Below, piece by piece: positions 9,721-29,038 of a stretch of 64,000 nt of DNA (the first letter of the stretch is position 1; each line of letters opens with the position of its first letter). Source of the DNA: Prochlorococcus sp. HOT208_60m_813B04 (lineage in GTDB: Bacteria; Cyanobacteriota; Cyanobacteriia; PCC-6307; Cyanobiaceae); NCBI GenBank assembly GCA_002025975.1, contig MWOU01000114.1, forward strand, positions 1 through 64,000. The letters are read 5' to 3'. Made by a program: the position numbers and the translations under genes. The notes under the pieces were generated by a model. It saw only the letters and a program-made list of their open reading frames with translations, searched no databases and was not told the DNA's origin.

Positions 9721-10032
9721 TTAGTCCTTTTGACCAAGAAATTCACCATTACCTAGAGCAGGTTCAACTTCTCTATGAGGACGAGCAATAATGTGAGCTG
9801 CAACTAAACCGTCACCAACTCTTTCACAAGCATCAGCACCAGCTCTTACAGCTGCGTTAACTGCGCCTGTTTCGCCTCTAACTAATACTGTGACATAACC
9901 GCCACCAACGAATTCACGACCAATAAGGCGAACTTCTGCTGCCTTTGTCATTGCGTCTGCTGCTTCGATTGCAGGTACAAGTCCGCGTGTCTCGATCATG
10001 CCGAGAGCGATACCCATTGTTTCTGTAGCCAT
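9721..10032 (-). CDS. csoS1: Carboxysome shell hexamer protein CsoS1 (BMC domain)
   Basis: ETMGIALGMIETRGLVPAIEAADAMTKAAEVRLIGREFVGGGYVTVLVRGETGAVNAAVRAGADA. Confidence 0.98.
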   Translation of the reverse strand: MATETMGIALGMIETRGLVPAIEAADAMTKAAEVRLIGREFVGGGYVTVLVRGETGAVNAAVRAGADACERVGDGLVAAHIIARPHREVEPALGNGEFLGQKD

Positions 10033-10255
10033 TGTCTACTAAATACTAAATGTGGAATGTTCACTTCGAAGAATGCTTCATTAAGTACTTATAAGTCAAG
10101 CGTTTTCGACAAAATCTCCATTAATGTTTTTTCTATTATTCATAAGTTAAACTTATCACCCTTGGTACTATTGATATGTCAATACTTATGCAAATTAGTT
10201 AGTGCATCAAAACATACTGTTGTGTTAAGAAAAAATTTACATTATGTTATTTCCG

Positions 10256-10312
10256 TACGAGACAGGCCCTGTCTACACAGGTGTGGAATGTTCAACCTTT
10301 CCTGTCTCCGTA
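10256..10312. ncRNA. Candidate structured RNA / leader element in the csoS1-rdgB divergent intergenic region (strand undetermined)
   Basis: Outer stem TACGAGACAGG / CCTGTCTC(C)GTA with one bulged C; alternating ACAGG-CCTGT-ACAGG-CCTGT segments inside allow alternative hairpins. Confidence 0.5.
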
Positions 10313-10360
10313 TCAAGCTTTGAAGTAAGATAACATTCACAATAAATTTTTTATATTATT

Positions 10361-26125: not shown

Positions 26126-27331
26126 ATGGGAGTCAGAAATAAAAATGCCCAAGATAATATCCAACCAAAGGGCAATAAAAAACCTCTTCAGGTACTTCAC
26201 ATAAGCAAGAAAGATACTCAAAAAATAGAGAATGAGCAAACCAATTCGCAAGAAGAAATAAAAAAAGAAGATATCGCAATCAAACCTCAAATCATTAATA
26301 ATGACTCAGTAAAAAAAATTGAGGACAATAATGAAAACACTAAGGATTTTGATATTTCCCAACAAAATTTAACTCAACAAGATTTAAATAGGCCCTTTAA
26401 TTTTTCTGAGCAAAACACAGATTTTCAATTAGAAAGAACAGTTGATGAATTCGATTTTGATGAAAGTGCTTTTTTGGAGGCTTTAAATGCAAATGAGCCA
26501 ATTGGGGCTACAGGAGAAGTAATTTCAGGTAAGGTTATAGCAATCGAAAGTGATGGACTATATGTTGACATTGGAGGAAAAGCACCAGGATATATGCCCA
26601 AAAAAGAATGTTGTTTGGGTGTCATTACTAACTTTAAAGAAAAGTTTTCTATAGGCCTTGAAATGGAAGTTTTGGTTATCAAAGAACAAAATGCTGATGG
26701 GATGGTAACAGTGAGCGCTCGGGCATTAATTCTCAGGCAAAGTTGGGAGAAAGTATCAAGTTCTGCAAAAAATGGAGAATTAATTAACGTTTTAATTAAT
26801 GGATTTAACAGAGGTGGGCTTACGTGTGATGTGGATGGATTAAGAGGATTCATCCCAAGATCCCAACTTGAAGATGGTCAAGATTATCAATCTTTTGTTG
26901 GCAAAACTCTAAAAGTAGCGTTTCTTGAGGTGAATCCAGAATCCAGAAAATTAGTTCTCTCTGAAAAAAAAGCATTATTAGTCTCTAAACTTACAAGTTT
27001 AGAATTAGGTCAATTAATTGAAGGAGAAGTTTTAGCAGTAAAACCATATGGCTTCTTTATAGATTTAGGTGGAGCTAGTGGACTTCTTCATCAATCCTCG
27101 CTAACAAATGGAGCGATTCGTTCTTTAAGAGAAGTTTTTAAAGAAGGGGAAATGATAAAAGCTTTAATATCTGAAATAGACCTCGAAAAAGGTCGTATTG
27201 GTCTCAATACAGCACTCTTAGAAAACTCTGCTGGAGAATTAATTATTGATAAGCAAAAAGTTATGCTAGAGGCCACAGAGAGAGCACTAAAAACTAAAGC
27301 ACTCTTCGATAAACAAGAACAAGATAAATGA
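26126..27331 (+). CDS. S1 domain RNA-binding protein (ribosomal protein S1-like paralogue)
   Basis: Three S1 motifs: GEVISGKVIAIESDGLYVDIGGKAPGYMPKKE; INVLINGFNRGGLTCDVDGLRGFIPRSQL; IEGEVLAVKPYGFFIDLGGASGLLHQSSL. Confidence 0.92.
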   Translation: MGVRNKNAQDNIQPKGNKKPLQVLHISKKDTQKIENEQTNSQEEIKKEDIAIKPQIINNDSVKKIEDNNENTKDFDISQQNLTQQDLNRPFNFSEQNTDFQLERTVDEFDFDESAFLEALNANEPIGATGEVISGKVIAIESDGLYVDIGGKAPGYMPKKECCLGVITNFKEKFSIGLEMEVLVIKEQNADGMVTVSARALILRQSWEKVSSSAKNGELINVLINGFNRGGLTCDVDGLRGFIPRSQLEDGQDYQSFVGKTLKVAFLEVNPESRKLVLSEKKALLVSKLTSLELGQLIEGEVLAVKPYGFFIDLGGASGLLHQSSLTNGAIRSLREVFKEGEMIKALISEIDLEKGRIGLNTALLENSAGELIIDKQKVMLEATERALKTKALFDKQEQDK

Positions 27332-28233
27332 ACACTAATAAAAAAATGGAGTCAAGTCTTAAATTAAAAATTTCAGATTGGGAATTAGACTTTTACTCAA
27401 GACCAATTATTGAATCAAATGGAAAAAAAAGGTGGGAATTAATTATTTGCTCTACAAGAAGTTATGAGACAAAAGATGTTTTTCATTGGAATAAAAAGTG
27501 CCCTGCTAATGAAGTTAATTCAGTTTGGCTTACAAAGGCACTCAATCAAGCGATAAGTGAAGCAAAAAAACAAGGGTGGGAGAAACCTTCTATAGTTCGA
27601 TTCTGGAGGCCGTCAATGAAATCGATCATTCAGAAATCTCTGGAGGCCGTAAGTATTGAGGCTATCGTAAGTAGAAGAACTTACAATTTATTAGATAGAA
27701 TCGAATTTCTTGAGAAAGAGATTTATCCAAAGGAAAAAGGTTATGTAAGAGGTGTATTAGCTCCCACTTTTACTTCTAAAATTGAAAACCCTCCTACACC
27801 TCTACCAGATGCAGTAAGGGGTGATGCTTTAACTATCTCTGAGATATCAATTGGTGAATTAAAATCAGCAGAAAATTGGCCTATGGAATTTGGAGATGTT
27901 TTCCCAATTCAGCAAGATTTAGATGATAACAACTTAGTTCCAGGATTAAGACTTTTTAGCAAAGATAGATCTTTGGCACTTTCTGCATGGTTTAGTTGTT
28001 TAGAACCTATTAAATTAGTAGTAAATAAGAACCAACTAATACTTGAAGCTTCAGAAGATGATAAGTGGTTGGTAACTGATTTACCAGAAAAAAATGCAAA
28101 CATTTTGAATACAAAGTTTTTAGAGAATAAAAAAAATTCTTTTGGTTATCAATTTATTTCCATACAGTCAACGCCATATATCGAAAAATTTGCAGGATTC
28201 TGGATCTTAAGAGATATTGAATTAATATCATAA
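27328..28233 (+). CDS. Tab2/Atab2 family RNA-binding translation factor (photosystem mRNA translation)
   Basis: WELDFYSRPIIESNGKKRWELIIC...RFWRPSMKSIIQKS...SRRTYNLLDRIEFLEKEIYP typical of the Tab2-like family. Confidence 0.88.
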   Translation: MNTNKKMESSLKLKISDWELDFYSRPIIESNGKKRWELIICSTRSYETKDVFHWNKKCPANEVNSVWLTKALNQAISEAKKQGWEKPSIVRFWRPSMKSIIQKSLEAVSIEAIVSRRTYNLLDRIEFLEKEIYPKEKGYVRGVLAPTFTSKIENPPTPLPDAVRGDALTISEISIGELKSAENWPMEFGDVFPIQQDLDDNNLVPGLRLFSKDRSLALSAWFSCLEPIKLVVNKNQLILEASEDDKWLVTDLPEKNANILNTKFLENKKNSFGYQFISIQSTPYIEKFAGFWILRDIELIS

Positions 28234-28255
28234 ATTCAGTTTAGGAGCAGGAACT

Positions 28256-29038
28256 ATTCCTTACAAAGAAATATATTTCTCAAAAAATAAAATTTGTATT
28301 CAAAACAAAGAATTTGAGTATTATTCATCACCTATTCTTAGTCAAAATAATTTCCAACATGCCTACTTCACAAACTCTTGCTCTGAGAAATTTCTTCAAT
28401 TATTAGGGAATCATTTTAATGAACATTCCATAAATTGTATTTCCAATCAAATTCACAGTAATGTGATAGTGTTTGGATCTAATTTGCAAAACGGAACTAA
28501 GACTGATGCAGATGGTTTTGTTAGCGATAAATGCAGTCAAAACTTATGGGTTTATACAGCTGATTGTATGCCAATATTTTTTGCAGATAAAAGGACAAGA
28601 AATGTAGCAAGCTTGCATTGTGGAAGAAAAGGTTTAGAAAAAAAAATAATAAAAAATCTGGTAAAAATTTTCGATACTTTTGGGACATCTAGAGATGACT
28701 TACTTGTTGCAATAGGACCAGCAATTTCTAAGGAACATTATTTAGTTGATAAATTGACACTCAAAGAATTTTATAGAAAGGCCGAAAACGAAAACGTAAC
28801 TGTCAAATTGAATAAAATTAAAAAACATCTTTGTTTTAGTGATTCAAATCACTTCAGAGAGCAAAACTTAAATCAACTTGATCTAAAAAAATCTGCCTAT
28901 AGACAACTTTTAAATGAGAACATCCTTCATACAAATATAGATATCTCAAATTTATGCACATACAAATTCAATAATGAATTTTATTCCTGGAGAAGGAGTA
29001 AAACACTCTCGAGACAATGGAATCTTATTTGCTCATAA
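28256..29038 (+). CDS. YfiH/polyphenol-oxidase (DUF152) family protein; probable ATT start codon
   Basis: Frame continues upstream of the ORF-track start (28463) with family-like N-terminus (PYKEIYFSKNKICIQ...NNFQHAYFTNSCSEKFLQLLG). AGGAG at 28243-28247 is 8 nt before ATT 28256; no ATG/GTG/TTG between the upstream in-frame stop (28223) and 28463. Core: ADGFVSDKCSQNLWVYTADCMPIFFADKRTRNVASLHCGRKGLEKKII, AIGPAIS. Confidence 0.82.
   Translation: MPYKEIYFSKNKICIQNKEFEYYSSPILSQNNFQHAYFTNSCSEKFLQLLGNHFNEHSINCISNQIHSNVIVFGSNLQNGTKTDADGFVSDKCSQNLWVYTADCMPIFFADKRTRNVASLHCGRKGLEKKIIKNLVKIFDTFGTSRDDLLVAIGPAISKEHYLVDKLTLKEFYRKAENENVTVKLNKIKKHLCFSDSNHFREQNLNQLDLKKSAYRQLLNENILHTNIDISNLCTYKFNNEFYSWRRSKTLSRQWNLICS

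Follow-up and report, generated by a model that had tools for sequence, protein, structure and literature searches.

Cross-genome comparison points to an AUU start codon for yfiH in high-light Prochlorococcus

Introduction

In the window (the whole stretch of 64,000 nt that was analysed), a gene of the peptidoglycan editing factor family, yfiH or pgeF, raises the question of where its translation begins. Enzymes of this family hydrolyse UDP-MurNAc-L-Ser/Ala. The frame of the gene is open far upstream of its first canonical start, and an ATT stands in the open segment at a short distance behind an AGGAG motif. Annotation pipelines usually permit only ATG, GTG or TTG as starts, and, to our knowledge, AUU starts with good support are few in bacteria; no report of AUU starts in Prochlorococcus was found in the literature searched.

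A sequence-only reading of this DNA had proposed initiation at the ATT, with an indel that removed a start codon and a frameshift from the preceding gene as alternatives. When rechecked on the window, its coordinates for the bounding TAA, the AGGAG, the 8-nt spacer, the ATT and the GTG all proved exact (Table 1). The N-terminal segment indeed lacks any ATG, GTG or TTG before the GTG at codon 70, and its estimate of about 260 residues from the ATT agrees with our count.

An AUU-type start shared by 140 genomes of Prochlorococcus, a phototroph abundant in the sea, and matched by an ATG at the same codon in a close sister group, would constitute a natural experiment on the effect of start-codon choice.

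Table 1. Features of the yfiH locus in the window and further candidate genes in the sister genome G041
Feature	Position	Strand	Basis or remark
Tab2/Atab2-like gene, directly 5' of yfiH	27328-28233	+	PF06485/PF20429
In-frame TAA bounding the YfiH frame upstream	28223-28225	+	Window sequence; frame opens at 28226
Tab2 stop TAA	28231-28233	+	22 nt before ATT
AGGAG Shine-Dalgarno motif	28243-28247	+	Kept in AUU-type genes, missing from ATG relatives; matches anti-SD CCTCC
Spacer AGGAG-ATT, 8 nt	28248-28255	+	Window sequence
Inferred start codon ATT (AUU)	28256-28258	+	Cross-genome comparison
yfiH/pgeF, peptidoglycan editing factor family, 260 codons + stop	28256-29038	+	TIGR00726, Pfam Cu-oxidase_4, catalytic residues
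GTG, start in the mechanical ORF list	28463-28465	+	Internal Val70 codon; not conserved; 3' of the Gln65/His67 pair
yfiH stop TAA	29036-29038	+	Window sequence
FA_desaturase-family gene	G041:C1:235223-236254 (L384-L413, L444-L452)		ATT 35/ATC 4 at codon 6, 39 genomes
cobS	G041:C1:266895-267671 (L414-L443, L459-L463)		ATC at codon 6, 35/35 genomes
mpg, methylpurine-DNA glycosylase	G041:C1:234172-234756 (L354-L383, L453-L458)		ATA at codon 2, 34/36 genomes
ComB-like gene	G041:C1:622405-623166 (L480-L509)		Conserved ATT at codon 13; inspection of 30 loci

Materials and Methods

The window comes from an assembly of 1.21 Mb (65% complete), where it lies on contig C19. The relatives compared are named Prochlorococcus and include the isolates MIT 9201, MIT 9302, MIT 9314 and MIT 9107; we infer that the source genome is a high-light (HL) Prochlorococcus. 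The clade names are used in the same inferred sense, HL-type being the label of the clade bearing ATT and LL-type that of the clade bearing ATG. Matches to yfiH were found in 128 of the 151 genomes of the genus, and 121 of them were aligned. In addition, a scan for coding sequence located 5' of the first canonical start covered 655 kb of the sister genome G041 and the 611 genes there that are conserved in G060.

Results and Discussion

The segment ahead of the internal GTG

When read from the ATT, the predicted product is a full-length member of the YfiH/PgeF family, with a score of 154.1 bits over residues 26-255 against the NCBIfam equivalog TIGR00726 (cut-off 141.15) and 139.5 bits against Pfam Cu-oxidase_4. 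On the basis of the residues and roles described for the E. coli enzyme (PMC8844914) and of an alignment to a solved homologue, Gln65, His67, Asp86, Cys104 and His121 can be equated with E. coli Gln69, His71, Asp89, Cys107 and His124. The active-site residues of PgeF/YfiH are thus in place: among the 121 orthologues, Gln65 and Asp86 are found in all, and His67, Cys104 and His121 in 120 each, the last two with one gapped row each. The protein would differ from the TIGR00726 family by its AUU instead of an ATG.

Values of dN/dS were 0.22 for codons 2-69, 0.29 for the rest of yfiH and 0.63 for the ten codons 5' of the ATT, which indicates that codons 2-69 are under purifying selection and that this selection is relaxed 5' of the ATT. 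The earlier suggestion that the segment before the GTG is the normal N-terminus of the family was borne out by this selection, by the TIGR00726 match from residue 26 onwards and by the presence of Gln65 and His67 inside it.

GTG 28463, the first canonical start of the window genome, is the one picked by the mechanical ORF list, and the open segment upstream would then be untranslated. A protein begun there would lack both Gln65 and His67, two residues that show little or no variation among the orthologues, and would leave unexplained an upstream segment selected like the remaining gene and matched by the family profile. Furthermore, this GTG is missing in many relatives. Across 103 genomes the first canonical codon 3' of the ATT is 28 to 104 codons away, and its place and kind vary. 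No canonical start explains the conserved N-terminus. The comparison refutes a start at GTG 28463, to which we attach almost no probability.

Start codons among the relatives

In the alignment, the column of the window's ATT holds ATT in 97, ATC in three and ATA in three of the 103 HL-type genomes. A second collection of 37 further genomes gave ATT 35, ATC 1 and ATA 1 at the same codon, and the pooled column of 140 HL-type genomes thus contains ATT 132, ATC 4, ATA 4 and not a single ATG, GTG or TTG. In 14 LL-type genomes the same column is occupied by ATG (13) or GTG (1), and the distance from it to the conserved YYSSPIL segment is equal in both types. Four more distant genomes apparently start with TTG, and in other genera of the family a usably placed ATG, GTG or TTG was found in nearly all loci examined. 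When the start codon was left out of tree building, a single change was needed to separate canonical from AUU-type starts on the resulting tree; its direction is not beyond doubt, since two ATT genomes (L102 and L103) branch near the base.

As a ground for abandoning the AUU start, the sequence-only reading had named orthologues with an ATG at the same place combined with an indel here. The first part was found, as LL orthologues do carry an ATG at this place, but the difference consists in a replacement of the codon and not in an indel that moves the frame. The idea that an indel had removed the start codon did not survive either: the ATT is kept in 140 genomes, and the N-terminal length is the same as in ATG-starting relatives. 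A wider form of this idea, in which the start was lost to a recent indel or substitution and the gene is decaying or mis-assembled, gains something from the many single-cell or metagenome assemblies in the sample. It is nevertheless refuted by the comparison, as the ATT-type start is common to 140 genomes, including the cultured isolates listed above, and yfiH is under purifying selection; the probability of this reading is practically nil.

In 94 of the 103 HL-type genomes, the stretch from the in-frame stop to the ATT is free of ATG, GTG and TTG codons. The other nine have a canonical codon 3-13 codons 5' of the ATT, which counts against the AUU start.

Two groups of loci were observed besides. 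In L095, L097 and L098, all of the HL clade, an ATG or GTG is present 3-7 codons 5' of the conserved ATT/ATC, perhaps as a local replacement of the AUU start. In the draft assemblies G142 (L118) and G108 (L123), yfiH is split or lies on two strands, as a result of assembly error or gene decay.

The junction with Tab2

The distance from the Tab2 stop to the ATT is 22 nt in 91 of 103 relatives, and the length of the linker is changed in 16 of the 103 genomes. Tab2 ends 8 nt after the opening of the YfiH frame in the window, and this geometry had led to the proposal of a +1 shift, in which programmed frameshifting near the Tab2 stop would yield a Tab2-YfiH fusion. Such a fusion requires that no stop interrupts the YfiH frame past the point where Tab2 ends. 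However, in 11 genomes a stop in the YfiH frame is located 3' of the Tab2 stop, 3-5 codons before the ATT; in L061 (which agrees with MIT 9302 in contig and position), L062 and L087 the ATT comes only three codons after this stop. The 11 genomes therefore allow no Tab2 fusion, and no start 5' of the stop. The variable linker and the ATG of the LL relatives also speak against the frameshift, which we consider extremely improbable and which the comparison refutes for the 11 stop-bearing genomes.

With the canonical starts and the fusion set aside, initiation at the AUU is the only reading of these sequences that fits every comparison. The conservation of codon, frame, Shine-Dalgarno (SD) motif and spacing supports the original proposal, and yfiH of HL Prochlorococcus is very probably translated from AUU 28256.

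The ribosome-binding site

An SD of 4 to 6 bases was present in 100 of the 103 AUU-type yfiH genes, most commonly as AGGAG with a spacing of 8 nt (80/103), that is, at a usable distance from a near-cognate codon. The three genes without a 4-base SD count against this pattern. None of the 14 ATG/GTG relatives has an SD before yfiH. The 3' end of the 16S rRNA carries the standard CCTCC anti-SD, and strong (5-base) SDs are otherwise rare, occurring in 2 of 54 window genes and in 10 of the 611 genes of the sister genome (about 2%). The yfiH ribosome-binding site is unusually strong for this organism.

RNA folding around the yfiH start gave no structure beyond chance (z of 0.21 and -0.22), and hence no support for a regulatory switch there.

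Proposed mechanism of initiation

These elements suggest the following course of events. Pairing of AGGAG with CCUCC would position the 30S subunit at the yfiH start, probably with the assistance of ribosomes that have just finished Tab2, whose stop is 22 nt away. The fMet-tRNA would pair imperfectly with AUU, and IF3, which discriminates against codons other than AUG, GUG and UUG, would make initiation slow; for this reason little YfiH should be produced, although the strong SD would offset the weak AUU in part.

Several known systems resemble this arrangement. In S. aureus, cvfC1 (AUU) and ccpN (AUA) have conserved starts with extended SDs and reach about 10% of the expression obtained with AUG (PMC13009471). 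As at yfiH, the near-cognate starts of ccpN (S. aureus and Bacillus) and of staphylococcal cvfC1 are conserved together with a strong, well-spaced and conserved SD (PMC13009471). They belong, however, to other genes in another phylum, and ribosome profiling together with reporter assays served to map them, whereas the yfiH start is derived from sequence comparison and lies directly behind Tab2. Streptomyces sigR likewise keeps a non-canonical start with its ribosome-binding site over a whole clade and was misannotated under the ATG/GTG/TTG rule; unlike yfiH, it uses GTC or GTT, has a known regulatory role, and its GTC start is repressed by IF3 in experiments (PMC5472188). In E. coli, AUU initiation of the kind proposed for yfiH limits translation of infC (PMC5472188) and, according to a title cited in PMC13009471, of pcnB. 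In Nostoc 7120, a distant cyanobacterium, a proteogenomic study reported ATT/ATA starts from peptide evidence (PMC8557916), so that AUU/AUA initiation as proposed for yfiH would have a parallel within the cyanobacteria.

The autoregulation of E. coli infC, which encodes IF3, had been cited as the best-known case of AUU initiation, but the link does not carry over: the gene considered here is yfiH, and infC starts with ATG in 29 Prochlorococcus loci. The AUU of yfiH is thus not the infC loop, and infC was rejected as a second AUU gene. Alternatively, yfiH could sense the status of initiation factors (IF3 level or growth rate), by analogy with sigR and ccpN, whose conserved non-canonical starts and SDs give an IF3- or medium-dependent output (PMC5472188, PMC13009471). 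As infC itself starts with ATG here, we regard such a sensor as rather unlikely. We know of no link between YfiH and translation.

The AUU may also be used without any regulation, if ribosomes tolerate AUU, AUC and AUA and the codon drifted from ATG, under a low need for the product, after a strong SD had arisen. The three codons do interchange at yfiH, other candidate genes with such starts exist, and the third base of the ATT varies to the same degree as fourfold T sites of a comparable kind; no selection for AUU over AUC or AUA was seen in this comparison. On the other hand, no return to ATG, GTG or TTG has occurred in 140 genomes although ATG is one base change away, and the presence of an SD in a genome that has few of them suggests that the entire site is under selection. 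To conclude from the lack of ATG revertants that AUU is selected was judged a weak argument by itself, since T-to-G changes are rare at such sites: G makes up 3 of 39 minor alleles at fourfold T sites, from which about 0.5 G would be expected per six changes. All in all, unregulated use is a serious contender with a probability a little short of even.

Other candidate genes in the genus

Besides yfiH, the scan of G041 returned four genes with long, synonymous-biased extensions, namely crtR, cobS, mpg and comB (Table 1); short extensions that showed no synonymous bias were discarded, as were matches falling in rRNA-like sequence. The FA_desaturase-family gene is probably crtR, encoding beta-carotene hydroxylase. 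It has no canonical start before codon 45-103 in nearly all genomes, a stop lies one or two codons 5' of the ATT/ATC in 6 of the 39, and a TATATTAT box precedes the conserved codon. For cobS, a TATTAT box is found upstream of the ATC, and a canonical TTG follows eight codons after it in many genomes, though not in all. In mpg, a stop is located one codon before the ATA in 26 genomes; an alternative start would be a TTG, out of frame by one base, ahead of an A-run on which slippage could occur. The ATT of the ComB-like gene stands 7-8 nt after an AAGGA-like motif, with indels up to that point and, in most loci, a TTG two codons before it.

These four starts are less certain than that of yfiH because crtR, cobS and mpg have no evident SD and are immediately preceded by A+T-rich, -10-like sequence, and comB has a nearby TTG. 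Taken together, the candidates suggest that AUU, AUC and AUA starts form a small but real class in the genus. We lean slightly towards the view that Prochlorococcus has a stable set of such genes, amounting to roughly 1% of all genes and maintained throughout the genus or its HL clade; yfiH, crtR, cobS, mpg and comB would belong to it, perhaps together with others. If so, start-codon selection would be relaxed or regulated in these phototrophs, the smallest that produce oxygen, and the genes of the set would be systematically mis-annotated. As at least four other genes resemble yfiH, some annotated Prochlorococcus gene starts are probably wrong; the N-termini of yfiH, and probably also of the pigment-pathway gene crtR, are predicted to be wrong across the genomes.

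A conserved region near a csoS1-like gene

In the window, a scan hit at 9886-10323, with 57 conserved codons before the first start, was rejected as coding sequence, as it overlaps the opposite strand of a CsoS1-like gene and its frame contains stops in many genomes. No Rfam family was matched in the window. Within this candidate, positions 10030-10320 are very conserved, apparently non-coding DNA located 5' of the minus-strand csoS1-like gene (carboxysome shell). The region contains two copies of TGTGGAATGTTCA, at about 10051 and 10282, and is possibly a long regulated leader or a promoter region.
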